Of a stretch of DNA of 34,601 nucleotides, positions 17,438-22,990 are shown one piece after another; positions within the stretch are counted from its first letter, which is position 1, and every line of letters begins with the position of its first letter. Source of the stretch: Bacteroidota bacterium (GTDB lineage Bacteria; Bacteroidota; Ignavibacteria; UBA10030; UBA8401); assembly GCA_030679145.1 (NCBI GenBank), contig JAUXTU010000120.1, positions 1-34,601 of the forward strand, written 5' to 3'. A program made the translations under genes and the position numbers. The notes under the pieces are model-generated. The model searched no databases and was not told the DNA's origin. It saw only the letters and a list, made by a program, of their open reading frames with translations.

Positions 17438-17463
17438 ACAAACTCCGCTTAAGCGGAGTTTGT
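17438..17463 (-). terminator. Palindrome at the end of the cytochrome operon, possible terminator
   Basis: A perfect 26-bp palindrome with a CTTAAG centre lies 5 bases past the stop codon of the last cytochrome gene. On the minus strand it is followed by a poor U-tract, so termination may be partial and allow read-through into the T9SS gene. Confidence 0.6.
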
Positions 17464-17468
17464 TGTCT

Positions 17469-17837
17469 TCAATTATCTTTTGCCCCTTGATCGATCCATC
17501 GTTTGAACAGATCAACATCTTCTTCAGACAATTTCTTTTTAGAGAAGATCGGCATCTGCGCTCCTTTAGGAGGATTTGGTAACAATTTCAATATGAGATA
17601 GCTTTTTGCGCCATCTCCTGGTATAACAATATTCTTTGTCTTGCCGCTCGTACGCATGAGTGAAACATTATCCATTGCATAATTGTTTGGATTCTCATCG
17701 TCTTTCTCGTGGCACTTTAGACATTTTGATTTGAGAATAGGATAGAGATTTTTTGAAAATGATACTTCATCTTTATCTTGAGCAGTAGTCCGTCCCAACA
17801 AAAATAATAGTGTACCACAAAGGAGTATGTATTTCAT
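17469..17837 (-). CDS. Small periplasmic monoheme c-type cytochrome (PSCyt1-like)
   Basis: This is a 122-residue secreted protein. Its signal peptide ends near TTAQ. The heme site is C39-L-K-C42-H43, and a methionine in the GAQMP segment is a candidate sixth ligand. The end, RWIDQGAKDN, matches the typical close of PSCyt1-type domains. AGGA lies 7 bases before the ATG. The gene is 15 bases downstream of a close paralogue in the same operon. It is probably a periplasmic electron carrier. It is covalently hemylated only if cytochrome maturation genes exist elsewhere, since none are in the window. Confidence 0.92.
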   Translation of the reverse strand: MKYILLCGTLLFLLGRTTAQDKDEVSFSKNLYPILKSKCLKCHEKDDENPNNYAMDNVSLMRTSGKTKNIVIPGDGAKSYLILKLLPNPPKGAQMPIFSKKKLSEEDVDLFKRWIDQGAKDN

Positions 17838-17852
17838 TAAAAATTCCTGCGA

Positions 17853-18218
17853 TTAATTGTTCTTTGCGCCTTGATCGATCCATGTTGAGATCATCTCGAT
17901 TGTTTCATCATCCAGCGGAGTTTTCCCTCTCGGCATTTGTTTGCCAAACTTCGCGGTTCCTTTCAATTTCATGATCAATATACTTTCTTGACCGTTTCCA
18001 GATTTAATTACGGGACCATGCTTGCTGTCGCCTTTCATTAATTCCTTATAATCATCTAAATACAGACCGCTTGGTCCTTCATCTTCAGTGTTATGGCATC
18101 CCATACATTTTTTTATGAGCACGGGCATAATTTCTTTTTTGAAAGATACTTTCGTTTTTTTTTCTTGAGCAACAACAAATGATGATAATACTAAACAAAC
18201 AACAATTAAATTTCTCAT
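17853..18218 (-). CDS. Small periplasmic monoheme c-type cytochrome (PSCyt1-like), paralogue
   Basis: From the ATG at 18218 it is 121 residues, with a signal peptide ending near VVAQ and heme motif CMGCH (C38, C41, H42). The GKQMPRG segment offers a methionine ligand, and the end is TWIDQGAKNN. A TTG two codons upstream (18224) sits at a better distance from the AAAGGA ribosome site, so the true start may be there; the mature protein is the same. It shares the overall pattern KCxxCH...GP(V)I...S.LI.KL...MP...WIDQGAK with its two neighbours, which points to tandem duplication. Confidence 0.92.
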   Translation of the reverse strand: MRNLIVVCLVLSSFVVAQEKKTKVSFKKEIMPVLIKKCMGCHNTEDEGPSGLYLDDYKELMKGDSKHGPVIKSGNGQESILIMKLKGTAKFGKQMPRGKTPLDDETIEMISTWIDQGAKNN

Positions 18219-18241
18219 AGACAACGATAATCCTTTCGTAA

Positions 18242-18904
18242 TTAATTATTTTTTGCGCCTTGATTGATCCAATCAACAATCTTTTGTAAATCAGCATCGC
18301 TTACCTGGCTTGTTGCTCCGAATGGCATACGTGCGCCGAATGGTAAGGTGGCAGTACGTAATTTCTTAACAAGGATACTGCCCGAAGCGTTTCCGACAAT
18401 TATTACGGGACCGTTAATGCTGTTACCTGCCATTACTTGTGGATATGATTCCAGAAACAAATTATTCTGTCCTCCATGGCATCCTGTACAGCCGTATGTT
18501 GTGGTAAACAGTGGGAGCACGTCGCTGTCAAAACTCACTGCTGGAACTGTTCCGAGCACTGTAAATTGTTTTCCTGCACTTGAAAGTCCATTTACTTTTA
18601 CGCTAACGTTCCCGGTGGCCGCATTTACTGGAACGATTGTCTTAATCAGTGTATCACTCCAAGGGCCAATTGATGTTGCCGCAACCGAGCCAAACGAGAT
18701 TGTACTTGATCCCTGTACACTTCCAAACTTTGTTCCTTTGATCGTAATCGTATCACCAACAGAACCGGATGCCGGTGACAACGATACAATCGTTGGAGCA
18801 TTTGAAGGAGGGTCAATTGGGGGAGCCAAAACTCCTTGATCATCACATGCAGAGATGAAAAACATTGCAGATACAATTATTGTTGATACGATTTTCATAT
18901 TCAT
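18242..18904 (-). CDS. Lipoprotein with IPT/TIG domain fused to a monoheme cytochrome c domain
   Basis: From the ATG at 18904 (AGAGGA 8 bases upstream, overlapping the stop region of the preceding gene) the product has 220 residues. A lipobox ends in ISA-C20, so the protein is lipid-anchored. Residues 37-116 form an IPT/TIG immunoglobulin-like domain (PTIVSLSPASGSVGDTITIKG at its start, longer than quoted here is avoided). Residues 122-220 form a PSCyt1-like heme domain with C139-T-G-C142-H143, a GARMPFG methionine and an end of WINQGAKNN. The fusion presents one heme on an anchored stalk. It is 13 bases downstream of the porin-cytochrome gene, so the two are surely co-transcribed. It could pass electrons between the outer-membrane porin and the small cytochromes (inference). 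Confidence 0.92.
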   Translation of the reverse strand: MNMKIVSTIIVSAMFFISACDDQGVLAPPIDPPSNAPTIVSLSPASGSVGDTITIKGTKFGSVQGSSTISFGSVAATSIGPWSDTLIKTIVPVNAATGNVSVKVNGLSSAGKQFTVLGTVPAVSFDSDVLPLFTTTYGCTGCHGGQNNLFLESYPQVMAGNSINGPVIIVGNASGSILVKKLRTATLPFGARMPFGATSQVSDADLQKIVDWINQGAKNN

Positions 18905-18917
18905 TGTACAAGTCCTC

Positions 18918-20090
18918 TTACAAATAGAAATGGAACATAACATGCAGTTCATTGTTTTTGAAATCGGTTGGATTTTCCTGATTGATGCGATAGAGCGGAC
19001 GAATCTCAACTCCTGTTAAAGGGAACAGCTCTGCACCAATTGTGTAGCGAGTTGCACTTCCATCTTTTCGGTTAAGGTTTGGATCGTAAAATTCATAACC
19101 GAATTTTAGATCGATTCCGTTTGAAAGAAGATAGTTTGCTTCCAGATACAAGATATTTCCAGTGACAAGTCTGTTCAACGGAGCTGAACTATTATGCGTT
19201 GTGATCATATCGTATTCACCCTGCAATGTCAAATTGTTGTCATACGAGATAACTCCGAACGCGCCAAGGATCTGTGTTTTTCCTGGTCCTCCGTCGGTTG
19301 GTAAATTATATACCGAACCGCCGATATTGAAGTTCACAACATCGGTTTGGATATTTGCATCGGCTCTTACAACCACAGCTTTGGTTTGTTTGTCAACGGC
19401 TCCGCCTCTTCCGCCGTTCATTCCATTGAATACGCCAATATTGATTGTGAAAATACTTGGATTAAAACCAACTTCAAGACCTGTATCTTCATTACCTTGT
19501 CCGAATCCGAGTCCTTTCGGATAATTGAGTCCTGTAGCCGATGCACCGATTCCTTGAATCACTCCCGGATTGGTTGAATATTCCTGACCGCTGCGAGTAA
19601 ACAATGTATGGTCGTCCATTTTCAATCCGTACGACGGAACAAAGTTTCCGATTTTAACATATCCATCTAATGGAAGTACTTTTGCAAGGCCGAACACTTC
19701 GAAACCGGAATACAATCCTTTATCAATATAGATACGGAATTTTTTATTTAAACGAAGGTCGAGATACAGATCCCCCTGCATTTGGAAGAAGCTGGATGAC
19801 GAACTTTGTTCGCGATAAAAGAAGAGTGTTCGGTAATCCATTCCAACAGTGAAAAAATCATTCAATGCCGGAGAGTACTCGTCGATATCGGTGGCTTCTT
19901 TATATGAAGCCATAGGAAGTTCTTCGCGTCCATACGTAGACCCGAATGTACTTCGCATACCTTTTCCCGTGGGATTGATATGACAGGATTGACATTTAGC
20001 TCCCTGACGCGTCGCAAATTTCGGCAATGCTTCGGAGAACTGGAATGCAAGAATAATGAATGAAATTAGAAACAGCGGTGAGCGTTTCAT
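18918..20090 (-). CDS. Outer-membrane porin with an N-terminal c-type heme motif (Cyc2-like architecture)
   Basis: This 390-residue protein starts with a signal peptide (ends near SEALP). Directly after it comes a heme-attachment motif, C33-Q-S-C36-H37, inside FATRQGAKCQSCHINP. The remaining roughly 340 residues are amphipathic strands with aromatic girdles, ending ...LHVMFHFYL, as in a beta-barrel porin of around 16 strands. A single heme at the N-terminus of a porin is the plan of Cyc2, the outer-membrane iron oxidase, but the barrel sequence differs and I do not claim the same substrate. A strong GGAGGAG site precedes the ATG. It heads an operon of four heme proteins with a promoter at 20135-20163. 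Confidence 0.88.
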   Translation of the reverse strand: MKRSPLFLISFIILAFQFSEALPKFATRQGAKCQSCHINPTGKGMRSTFGSTYGREELPMASYKEATDIDEYSPALNDFFTVGMDYRTLFFYREQSSSSSFFQMQGDLYLDLRLNKKFRIYIDKGLYSGFEVFGLAKVLPLDGYVKIGNFVPSYGLKMDDHTLFTRSGQEYSTNPGVIQGIGASATGLNYPKGLGFGQGNEDTGLEVGFNPSIFTINIGVFNGMNGGRGGAVDKQTKAVVVRADANIQTDVVNFNIGGSVYNLPTDGGPGKTQILGAFGVISYDNNLTLQGEYDMITTHNSSAPLNRLVTGNILYLEANYLLSNGIDLKFGYEFYDPNLNRKDGSATRYTIGAELFPLTGVEIRPLYRINQENPTDFKNNELHVMFHFYL

Positions 20091-20134
20091 TGAACTCCTC
20101 CAAGGATAAAATAAATTTCAATTTAATCTACGGT

Positions 20135-20163
20135 AATGTATAACTATCGGATGTAATTTGCAA
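20135..20163 (-). promoter_or_regulatory. Putative promoter of the cytochrome operon
   Basis: Read on the minus strand: TTGCAA (20163-20158), 17 bases, TACATT (20140-20135). The leader would be about 38 bases and contains GGAGGAG. This separates the cytochrome operon from the upstream VWA gene. Confidence 0.5.
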
Positions 20164-20206
20164 TATTATGCGCCGACGACGTGAGGAAAGTCATATTTCT
20201 TTCTAT

Positions 20207-21298
20207 CTAGAATTTTTTCCGTCGATTGCGGATATAATCCACGAATAAAAACTGCCCAAGGTTATTTAAAGATGAATAATATGCGCGACCCTTATTTGCT
20301 TTGGTTAATTCTTCAATGAAGTTGATAAGGTATGGATCTTGAGCAATCATGAACGTGCTAATCGTAATCTTCTCGCGCCGGCACTGGACTGCTTCATCCA
20401 ATGTTTTATTAACGATCTTCGGGTCTAGCCCAAACGAATTTTTATATAATCGCCCCGAATCATCGAACATTGCCGATGGTTTACCGTCTGTAATCATGAA
20501 TATCTGCTTGTTTACATTTCCACATTTACGCAAAAGATTTCGTGCCATTTGTAATCCGGCGCGCGTATTTGTGTGGAATGGTCCGACTTGTAAGAATGGA
20601 ATCTCCGCCAGACTGATCAAGCTAGCGTCATCACCAAAGGTCAAACACGCTAGAAAATCTTTCGGAAATTTTGTCTGGATCAATTCTGCAAGAGCAAGGG
20701 CAACTTGTTTTGCTGGTGTAATCCTGTCTTCACCATACAATATCATGCTGTGGGAAATATCTATCATTAATACAGTTGCACAGGAAGAAAGATTTTCGGT
20801 TTCATACACTTCCAGATCGTCTTCCTGTAGATTGAAATTATCAATGCCGTCACGCTTTAGTGCATTGGTCATTGTGGAAGTGAGATCGATGTCTGTAGAT
20901 CTATCGCCAAAGTTCCATTTTTTTGTTTCACTCAATCGCTCGACGCCACTGCCGGTATTTGGAGTTTCATGATTTCCCATCGGATTTTTCTTCAATGACG
21001 AGAATATTTCTTTCAGAGCGTCTTGTCTGATTTTCTGAACACCCTTTGTTGTCAGTTCAAAATTGTTCTTTACTTCTTCAATGATTCCCATCTCTTTTAA
21101 TTTCTCAACAAGGTCATCAATGGACATTTCTTCGTCAAAAATGCCGTACTCTTTGGCAAGTTGTCGAAGCCATTCGAGTGCTTCCTCAACATCACCGCTC
21201 GTTTGCAGAACAAGATAATTGAATAACTTTGTCAGTTGTTCAAGCCGTTGTTCATCGGTCGCGGAATTTTCATTCCATTTGCTGTAAAGAAACTTCAT
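20207..21298 (-). CDS. VWA (von Willebrand factor A) domain protein, partner of an AAA+ ATPase
   Basis: The protein has 363 residues and no signal peptide, so it is cytoplasmic. The N-terminal half is helical and acidic. The C-terminal half is a VWA domain with a MIDAS metal site, D180-I-S182-H-S184, plus a later MITDGKPSAMF segment giving the acidic ligand. It follows an AAA+ gene on the same strand, the usual MoxR/chelatase-VWA pairing in which the VWA protein recruits a client and the ATPase remodels it, often for metal or cofactor insertion. The client is unknown. A 160-bp inverted-repeat element sits between the two genes. The adjacent cytochrome operon is a conceivable client set, but that is speculation. 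Confidence 0.9.
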   Translation of the reverse strand: MKFLYSKWNENSATDEQRLEQLTKLFNYLVLQTSGDVEEALEWLRQLAKEYGIFDEEMSIDDLVEKLKEMGIIEEVKNNFELTTKGVQKIRQDALKEIFSSLKKNPMGNHETPNTGSGVERLSETKKWNFGDRSTDIDLTSTMTNALKRDGIDNFNLQEDDLEVYETENLSSCATVLMIDISHSMILYGEDRITPAKQVALALAELIQTKFPKDFLACLTFGDDASLISLAEIPFLQVGPFHTNTRAGLQMARNLLRKCGNVNKQIFMITDGKPSAMFDDSGRLYKNSFGLDPKIVNKTLDEAVQCRREKITISTFMIAQDPYLINFIEELTKANKGRAYYSSLNNLGQFLFVDYIRNRRKKF

Positions 21299-21323
21299 TC
21301 TTAATTGAAAATTGACGATGGAT

Positions 21324-21483
21324 AATTATTAACTGATGTTACGCAGAAATATTAACCGCTTAACAAAGTAAAGTCGTCATGCCCGAATGCCTTAGTCGGG
21401 CATCCATCATTTAGATTCCCGCTTAAAACGTGCGGGAATGACGATTGGTTTTTTTTGGTTTTGCGTAACATCAATTAATAATT
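21324..21483. repeat. Inverted-repeat element (160 bp) between the AAA+ and VWA genes
   Basis: Outer arms of 22 bp with one mismatch (left 21324-21345, right 21462-21483; core GATGTTACGCA / TGCGTAACATC) enclose a three-way junction. A 7-bp TCGTCAT/ATGACGA stem (21374-21380 / 21438-21444) holds two hairpins, GCCCGA/TCGGGC (21381-21401) and CCCGC/GCGGG (21418-21436). The right arm ends 4 bases from the stop codon of the ATPase gene. It is non-coding and looks like a miniature element or REP-type repeat. Confidence 0.8.
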
Positions 21484-21487
21484 GCTT

Positions 21488-22990
21488 TTAGTCATAATCT
21501 TCAAATTTTCCTTTATTCGAAAAAATACTTCCAACCATATCTTTATAATGTGTGATATGATCGACTTCATCTTTTGCGATCTTTGAATTTTGATGCAAGC
21601 CGTCCAAAACAAATTCCATTGCCGAAGCAAGATCGAATTGATTGTTTGGATCCAATTTAAAATATTTTTGCGTTACGGCATAAAGATTCGGAACGCGGTT
21701 GAGTTCGGTATAATATGCAATGAAGGGCATATCATCAGCAACTTCAATAGAATTTCCCCCTTCAAACCACTGAACGATCTTTGAATATTCGCTTGTATCT
21801 TTTGGCTCTTGTCCTTGTGGTACTCGTTTTGGTTTTTGCAGCGGATCGGGAAAATATTTTTTGAACACTTCGCGTGTGGCTTTTCCCAGCAATGCTTTAC
21901 CCACTTTGTTTGCTCCTTCTTGTTCACCTTCGAAGACCAATTCCACTTTTCCAGTTACACCCGGAAGAGCATGGGGGAGATCGCACATTCTTGGAACGAT
22001 ATCTTTTTCACTCATGACAATTGCTCTTCGTTCAGCATTGCTCACAAGATTTTCCATCGCAGCAATTGTCAATCGCGCGCTAACGCCCGACTTTTGATCG
22101 ACAAATTCACTTTTACGTGCTTCGAACGCAATATTCTCAACGATCTCCTTGAAATAGTACGGCATATGCAATTGCAGTCCATCGCGTTCCACCCATGCTT
22201 CTTGATTAGTAATTTCGATTGCATCTTCCAACGAACGAGGATAGTGAGTAAGAATTTGGGAATCAATTCTGTCTTTTAATGGAGTGATGATGCTTCCACG
22301 ATTCGTATAATCTTCCGGATTTGCTGTGAAGACAAGAAATACATCCAGTGGAATTCGAATATTGAATCCTCGTATCTGCACATCTTTTTCTTCAAGAATA
22401 TTAAAGAGACCGACTTGAATGCGCGGCTGAAGATCTGGCAATTCGTTGATCGCAAAAATTCCTCGATTGCTTCGCGGTATCAATCCAAAATGAATAGCGC
22501 CTTCGTGTGAATAATGTAATCGCTGCGTTGCTGCTTTGATCGGATCAATATCGCCGATTAAGTCTGCGATGGTCACATCGGGAGTTGCTAATTTTTCACT
22601 GAACCGTTGTGAGCGATGGATCCATTCGATCTCAGTTTCATCTCCGAATTTTGCAATTTGATCGGCTCCGAATTTGCTCACCGGTAAGAACGGATTGTCG
22701 TTGATCTCACTTCCTTTTATCGTAGGAATGTATTCATCCAGCAATGCAGGTAACTGCCGAATCAGTCTTGTTTTCGCCTGTCCACGCAGACCAAGAAGTA
22801 TGATATCGTGTTTTGCCAATATTGCATTGATCAGTGCCGGAATTACTGTTGATTCGTAGCCGATAATTCCCGGAAACAATTGTTCCTTTGTTCGTAATTT
22901 TTTTATAAGGTTTACCCTGATCTCATCCTTCACAGAAAGAACCTTGTATCCGATATTCTTTAATTCACCGAGCGTTTTGGCGTTCTTCAT
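21488..22990 (-). CDS. AAA+ ATPase of the magnesium-chelatase/MoxR type
   Basis: The protein has 500 residues, with Walker A G67-LRGQAKT74 and a Walker B-like strand ending in IFAINELPDL, where the usual Asp-Glu is replaced by Asn-Glu. Downstream are the FTANPEDYTNRG sensor region and an arginine-rich lid. The length and these motifs fit the chelatase-I/MoxR clade, whose members act as hexameric remodelling machines with a VWA partner. The start is supported by AAGGAAG before the ATG and by a promoter at 23014-23042. The VWA gene follows on the same strand. Likely role: ATP-driven activation or cofactor loading of a client protein (inference). It is not a dedicated chlorophyll enzyme as far as the context shows. 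Confidence 0.9.
   Translation of the reverse strand: MKNAKTLGELKNIGYKVLSVKDEIRVNLIKKLRTKEQLFPGIIGYESTVIPALINAILAKHDIILLGLRGQAKTRLIRQLPALLDEYIPTIKGSEINDNPFLPVSKFGADQIAKFGDETEIEWIHRSQRFSEKLATPDVTIADLIGDIDPIKAATQRLHYSHEGAIHFGLIPRSNRGIFAINELPDLQPRIQVGLFNILEEKDVQIRGFNIRIPLDVFLVFTANPEDYTNRGSIITPLKDRIDSQILTHYPRSLEDAIEITNQEAWVERDGLQLHMPYYFKEIVENIAFEARKSEFVDQKSGVSARLTIAAMENLVSNAERRAIVMSEKDIVPRMCDLPHALPGVTGKVELVFEGEQEGANKVGKALLGKATREVFKKYFPDPLQKPKRVPQGQEPKDTSEYSKIVQWFEGGNSIEVADDMPFIAYYTELNRVPNLYAVTQKYFKLDPNNQFDLASAMEFVLDGLHQNSKIAKDEVDHITHYKDMVGSIFSNKGKFEDYD

Follow-up and report, generated by a model that had tools for sequence, protein, structure and literature searches.

The stretch of DNA analysed here, 34,601 nucleotides long and referred to below as the window, comes from a Bacteroidota bacterium of the Ignavibacteria (GenBank assembly GCA_030679145.1, contig JAUXTU010000120.1) and carries on its minus strand, at 17469-20090, four head-to-tail genes encoding a porin fused to a heme domain and three single-heme cytochromes. 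We lean towards the reading that this operon specifies a single-heme electron conduit across the outer membrane, which would work in the manner of Cyc2, moving electrons inward and probably taking them from a dissolved donor, for instance Fe(II); that it serves as a conduit in one direction or the other we regard as likely. Judged by its sequence, the porin would work like Cyc2, to which it is related in the heme domain, and is not a Cyc2 member by the published criteria tested. It is a divergent fused cytochrome-porin with a partner set of its own, from a separate and widespread family whose name we did not find in the open-licence literature. The operon has the following features:

18918..20090, minus strand: fused cytochrome-porin, 390 aa, with an N-terminal heme domain (about residues 20-70) and a predicted 16-strand beta barrel (80-389)
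19980..19994, minus strand: porin heme site CQSCH, residues 33-37, within ALPKFATRQGAKCQSCHINPTGKGMR; invariant (85/85)
19608..19610, minus strand: His161 codon, within the long loop that follows strand 5 (KMDDH; loop taken from the model), a candidate second heme ligand or metal site; 85/85
19779..19781, minus strand: codon of Met104 in strand 2 (strand taken from the model), the other invariant candidate ligand; 85/85
18242..18904, minus strand: lipoprotein with an IPT/TIG stalk and a C-terminal monoheme cytochrome domain; CTGCH at 18476-18490, the second ligand probably supplied by a Met-Pro close to the end
17853..18218, minus strand: cytochrome B, 121 aa, small, probably exported, monoheme, PSCyt1 type; CMGCH at 18093-18107
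17469..17837, minus strand: cytochrome A, 122 aa, small, probably exported, monoheme, PSCyt1 type; CLKCH at 17709-17723

Transcription runs from the porin through the IPT lipoprotein-cytochrome and cytochrome B to cytochrome A, with intergenic gaps of 13, 23 and 15 bp, and each of the four products contains a single CxxCH. The tight single-strand operon and the one heme site per product, both put forward by an earlier reading of this sequence (the original prediction), are therefore borne out. Export signals were judged by eye, without a signal-peptide program, and in the lipoprotein reading frame one residue precedes the ATG.

As described in the retrieved text of Keffer et al. 2021 (PMC8406198), Cyc2 oxidises Fe(II) and is recognised by a single CXXCH with AXPXFAR[Q/K][T/Y] before it and PXL after it, 365 aa or more in length, and a 16-strand OprO/OprP-like barrel. 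The window porin follows the same plan, namely a signal, next a single-heme domain in which an AxPxFA-like lead precedes CxxCH, and then the barrel; it has one CxxCH, 390 aa and, in the predicted model, 16 strands arranged as in OprO/OprP. For comparison we assembled 71 window-type proteins (set A2), 12 Cyc2-type proteins of the same phylum (A3) and four Cyc2-type sequences closer in taxonomy (A4). The heme domains of the window porin and A3 align gap-free up to CxxCH, with ALPKFATRQGAKCQSCH beside AIPAFARKYNMSCQTCH and the same AxPxFA...CxxCH spacing, and the profile-profile match between the porin family and the Cyc2-type proteins reaches 98.7% (E 4e-16). Full-length homology with Cyc2 was considered and rejected, as this 329-column profile match is carried by the heme domain.

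Unlike the Cyc2-type proteins, the window family is without PXFAR[Q/K][T/Y] before CxxCH (0/71 of A2; the window porin has ALPKFATRQGAKC) and without PXL 3-6 residues after the CxxCH histidine (0/71, vs 6/12 of A3), has CHxNPxG instead (67/71), and is accompanied by a partner of the PSCyt1 type. The members of A3 were chosen by the PXFAR[Q/K][T/Y] motif, so that their own 12/12 count for it is circular. In a heme-domain tree (59 columns only, midpoint root), 13 Cyc2-type rows and the 71 A2 rows fall on two sides of one branch (100/99), with the A2 rows L126, L127 and L129 nearest to Cyc2 at a weak fork (53/84). When the 12 Cyc2-type proteins of the phylum, other than the queries of Keffer et al., were used in blastp, none of the 71 reached E 1e-5 at a database size of 2e11 letters; at the raw small-database size 37/71 did so, the window porin with 6e-6 over 37 residues. 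Membership in Cyc2 is thus rejected by signature, heme-domain tree and blastp, despite the homologous heme domain. That the set matches no named system, as had been stated, was too strong a claim with respect to the plan of the porin, which is that of Cyc2, and is upheld with respect to the published signature, which the porin fails. Like MtrCAB, PioAB/MtoAB and the Geobacter porin-cytochrome (Pcc) system, the operon combines an outer-membrane barrel with c-type cytochromes. A multiheme complex of the Mtr/Pio/Pcc kind was rejected, there being one CxxCH per product and no multiheme gene in the block; in MtrCAB/MtoAB/PioAB a 26-strand barrel holds a decaheme cytochrome (retrieved text of PMC8406198), whereas the window porin has 16 predicted strands and one heme fused to the barrel.

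The barrel fold is a prediction. An AlphaFold2 model built on the 71-sequence alignment (mean predicted local distance difference test, pLDDT, 84; predicted template modelling score, pTM, 0.83) has an N-terminal helical part followed by 16 strands over residues 80-389. In VIA-align, OprO/OprP came top (Z 25.1-25.3, 2.5-2.6 Å over 283-286 residues), and other porins scored 21.5-23.6; these rows span porin residues 73-390 and barely cover the heme domain. Foldseek with the same model returned porins, the best TM-score by query length among the matches listed being that of OprP (0.59). By sequence, the PDB yielded no credible relative of the porin (best E 0.36 with the single sequence, none up to 0.1 with the family profile), and up to E 0.1 it matched no Pfam or NCBIfam family. 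Across 85 sequences, the 71 aligned plus 14 more distant ones, His161 and Met104 are the only invariant histidine and methionine outside CxxCH (85/85), and neither is listed as invariant in the Cyc2-type alignment. Met45 (68/71), Lys146 (70/71) and His387 (60/71) are less conserved. Asp159 (60/71) and Asp160 (53/71, Glu in 12) share the long loop after strand 5 with His161. In classical porins the third extracellular loop folds into the pore, and the loop with His161 would be the third extracellular one in the model if strand 1 runs outwards; His161 may be a heme ligand or a metal site.

These features also bear on a different explanation, in which the heme would sense redox state or gate an OprP-like channel that admits a small anion or metal, and the cytochromes would reset it. 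The barrel is closest to phosphate porins, the charged residues K146, D159, D160, H161 and R166 are conserved in or before the loop after strand 5, and genes for CxxCH-bearing sensor kinases precede the porin in L103, L110 and L131 (3/75 loci). However, up to three cytochromes seem excessive for one gate and the heme domain has its homologue in an iron oxidase, and we hold such a gate to be quite unlikely.

The proteins encoded beside the porin are predicted monoheme cytochromes. The cut-off of 22 bits for PSCyt1 (Planctomycete cytochrome C, PF07635) is passed by cytochrome B (27) and cytochrome A (23.7), which fit this family, but as small single-domain proteins in a porin operon. The third cytochrome of the operon is unlike PSCyt1, being a lipoprotein on an IPT stalk whose cytochrome domain stays below the cut-off of all three cytochrome families matched (PSCyt1 15.8 vs 22); the original prediction of PSCyt1-type domains hence stands for cytochromes A and B and falls for the lipoprotein. 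Its prediction of an IPT-stalked lipoprotein is backed by IPT/TIG (PF01833; E 5e-13, 49.3 bits vs a cut-off of 20.9) and by a lipobox cysteine that is invariant in the window lipoprotein and 13 stalked relatives. In the 14 aligned proteins Met194-Pro195 and the heme motif are kept, the latter longer than CxxCH in L086, L087 and L126. As a separate observation, CX4CH replaces CxxCH in the stalked lipoprotein-cytochromes of L086:7126-7842 and L085. The small cytochromes of relatives, in an alignment that includes four heme-less lipoprotein fragments, keep CxxCH and mostly show W-I/V-x-x-G-A; ahead of the C-terminal helix they nearly always have a Met, replaced by Leu in L075 and by Ile in L116. 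A heme motif with a Met near the C-terminus is typical of His/Met class I cytochromes. The lipoprotein model comprises an Ig-like region (39-120) and then four short helices, and a sequence search of the PDB up to E 0.1 returned no relative of cytochrome A or cytochrome B.

The association of porin and cytochrome recurs in related genomes, where the original prediction had proposed to look for it; a failure of these genes to co-occur elsewhere, which would have counted against that prediction, is not what was seen. The porin was found in 41 of the 60 genomes searched (own, genus, family and order, the window's genome counted). The downstream neighbours were looked at in 40 loci from 39 genomes, out of 40 other porin-bearing genomes (G006 not included). 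The count itself omits L037 and L043 (with 153 and 245 bp of contig remaining), L047 and L069 (at a contig end) and L060 (frame entering a masked stretch); the genome of L069 stays in the count through L070. A heme-bearing PSCyt1-type cytochrome lies within 700 bp downstream on the same strand in 32/35 assessable related genomes, which is beyond chance, and in 28/35 it is the next gene, ending or starting at most 36 bp from the porin. Three cytochromes follow the porin in only 6/35 (G001, G002, G003, G010, G015 and G018, all of the same genus or family), the first of them being, by its length, of the stalked kind in G001, G003 and G018, of the short kind in G002 and G015, and broken in G010. 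The conserved core is therefore porin plus monoheme cytochrome, and the four-gene form is a local version of it.

In 4 of 75 loci (L115, L116, L118 and L121, which belong to Ignavibacteriales/Bacteroidetes with isolate names containing 'Sed'), a plastocyanin-like protein takes the place of the cytochrome just downstream of the porin. All four have the copper motif Cys-x-x-His-x-x-Met, and the one scanned scored 21.6 against 21.2 bits for Pfam Copper-bind. Since cytochrome and cupredoxin are exchanged at this position, the partner of the porin would be an electron carrier, and we consider this the best single argument for electron transfer. The Cyc2 of Acidithiobacillus likewise has a small cytochrome (Cyc1) and a cupredoxin, rusticyanin, as partners, a parallel to the exchange seen in the window family.

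The neighbourhoods also speak to the idea that the porin could be an outer-membrane enzyme whose heme acts on a small molecule such as peroxide, nitric oxide, hydroxylamine or similar. Two relatives from Nitrospiraceae do adjoin a triheme protein (a cytochrome P460 in L120; L123), but the neighbours in the 35 related genomes are small cytochromes and not an enzyme, and the two invariant candidate second ligands would point to a transfer heme that is six-coordinate and not open, which makes an enzyme highly improbable in our estimate.

The rest of the host genome is consistent with an electron conduit. The genes for CcmE (truncated at the contig end), a CcmC-like protein, CcmB and an ATP-binding cassette ATPase in the place of CcmA lie together, with CcmF on another contig, and a cbb3 oxidase (fused COX1-FixO, FixP) is encoded in another block along with a FixG-type protein and a heavy-metal ATPase. 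Because both sets are present, the host can probably make c-type cytochromes and respire oxygen; a lack of cytochrome c maturation genes, which the original prediction had named as a possible refutation, was not encountered. A separate Cyc2-type porin (444 aa, WARKTGMNCNACHTVFPRLN; L218:7905-9236, contig C102) groups with Cyc2 in the heme-domain tree and is preceded by an octaheme cytochrome with a type IX secretion system (T9SS) sorting tail (L218:5859-7484, contig C102); the two may constitute a second outer-membrane electron route in this host.

The octaheme cytochrome is of interest with regard to the direction of flow. In an outward conduit, electrons would pass from the periplasmic cytochromes to the porin heme, and to the lipoprotein if it faces outside, and on to a soluble acceptor, e.g. 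chelated Fe(III), humics or an electrode shuttle; direction is not fixed by anything in the sequence, and the T9SS octaheme cytochrome encoded elsewhere in the genome would agree with such a route. On the other hand, Cyc2, the nearest characterised relative of the heme domain, oxidises Fe(II) according to the retrieved text of PMC8406198, and cbb3 oxidase genes are present. The likely His/Met cytochromes are, moreover, of a kind that usually has a high potential and makes a better electron acceptor. Weighing these points, we consider outward flow unlikely.

For the favoured inward conduit, we propose that the short N-terminal c-type heme domain would sit at the periplasmic mouth of the OprP-like barrel, or plug its pore. 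A small dissolved one-electron donor, with Fe(II) as the first candidate, would enter the pore, where the conserved Asp-Asp-His loop, should it fold into the barrel, might hold or gate this donor, and would reduce the porin heme, from which the electron would pass to the two soluble periplasmic PSCyt1-type cytochromes (A and B) and then to the cbb3 oxidase. The lipid-anchored IPT cytochrome would place one more heme next to the porin, at the membrane. The porin-cytochrome conduit of the original prediction is thus strengthened by the conservation of the block, the Cyc2-homologous heme domain, the OprP-like barrel and the Ccm genes, with electron transport itself being what we infer from them.

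Several observations weigh against this inward conduit. The barrel alone matches the Cyc2 barrel (28.6%) no better than an unrelated barrel (24.9%; three sequences), and the A4 sequences at 5.4%, with reversed-barrel controls at 0.6% or less. Foldseek with the lipoprotein model matches, among the matches listed, just its Ig-like/IPT part. The cytochrome is not a direct neighbour in 4 of the 32 positive cases (L053, 695 bp away with a 219-aa gene in between; L061 and L063, separated by a heme-less lipoprotein; L070, 330 bp away with a broken frame), and 3/35 genomes have no heme cytochrome nearby (nothing found in G040 and G050, a heme-less lipoprotein only in G057). A cruder count over 75 loci of several phyla, which takes in contig ends and losses from the picking of open reading frames and has many contigs in common with the 35-genome count, gave a cytochrome in 36, a cupredoxin in 4, another gene in 18 and none in 17. 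As the genome has a second, Cyc2-type porin, the operon porin may do something else. Nothing within the window names a substrate. Finally, among the matches listed in the open-licence literature, there was no report of a purified or tested member of the family, and no description of the porin family or the operon in titles or abstracts.

Relatives of the porin are widely distributed. A tblastn search of an 84,980-species collection gave 260, of which 80 were kept; by the record titles as given, nearly all of metagenome-assembled genomes, these belong to Ignavibacteria/Bacteroidetes/Chlorobi, Nitrospirota, Zixibacteria, Eisenbacteria, Krumholzibacteria, Gemmatimonadetes, Terriglobia and Deltaproteobacteria. 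Within the phylum, 101 of 296 genomes had a match in a profile search, and 11 of the 20 loci opened hold Cyc2-type proteins weakly matched in or near the heme domain. A more far-reaching proposal, which we advance tentatively and with some doubt, is that these porins are a second, separately specialised family of one-heme outer-membrane metal oxidases (in Ignavibacteria, Nitrospirota, Zixibacteria and others), in which the invariant His of the Asp-Asp-His loop would bind metal or heme in the pore and electrons would flow to PSCyt1 cytochromes or cupredoxins. If this were true, many supposed heterotrophs would gain a lithotrophic electron intake that motif-based Cyc2 screens have missed.

Few marker genes for metal oxidation exist outside Cyc2 and the multiheme systems, and a widespread family that shares the Cyc2 plan, keeps a cytochrome partner and has two invariant candidate ligands would add to the bacteria regarded as able to take up outside electrons. 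With one porin and one to three single-heme proteins, it is also a small system that could be expressed and tested. In the retrieved text of a deep-mine survey with FeGenie (PMC8478452), Cyc2 dominates among the iron-oxidation genes, belonging to 'cluster 3' at most sites, and Ignavibacteriales and Zixibacteria hold iron-oxidation genes; some of the Cyc2 genes in that part of the survey could belong to the window porin family.

The DNA signals around the operon are as follows:

17438..17463, minus strand: perfect palindrome right after the last stop codon, a possible terminator or 3' end stabiliser; T-run absent
20091..20206, minus strand: leader of 116 bp that separates the porin from the VWA gene, where a promoter would be expected

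The closing palindrome had been noted correctly in that its 13-nt arms are perfect and its fold has a z of -5.9, but it is without a T-run and the terminator scan gave no score there. The single promoter assumed at the same time found no support, since the scan returned 10 promoter-like sites vs 8.7 +/- 3.3 in shuffles, i.e. no excess. Genes on either side were rejected as parts of the operon. The downstream gene for a T9SS-secreted protein (14546 to ~17371) has its own start and signal and lies behind the palindrome, and one or both of the upstream AAA (21488-22990) and VWA (20207-21298) genes are near the porin in just 11/40 loci, all of the same genus or family. This upstream pair (20207-22990), an AAA-ATPase (ChlI/MoxR-like) and a VWA gene, looks functionally unrelated to the porin.

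Other arrangements were seen at individual loci. In L103, L110 and L131 the porin is preceded by a CxxCH-bearing histidine kinase and a sigma-54 response regulator, with an extracytoplasmic function (ECF) sigma factor as well in L110 and L131 (Pfam annotation for L110 only), and this arrangement, in 3/75 loci, suggests redox-responsive control. In L120 and L123, both titled Nitrospiraceae, the porin relative comes directly after the triheme protein, which is a cytochrome P460 by Pfam in L120 and a protein of 542 aa with three CxxCH in L123. Cyc2-type porins with a FARKY motif directly follow a protein with four CxxCH in L186, L193 and L194, from the same class as the window genome. Another monoheme family of ~220-548 aa, with the pattern IPNG..CxxCH..P.GG..RN.FG, occurs in L190, L191, L192, L203, L204, L205 and L208, and in L203, L204, L205 and L208 it adjoins a relative of the porin.

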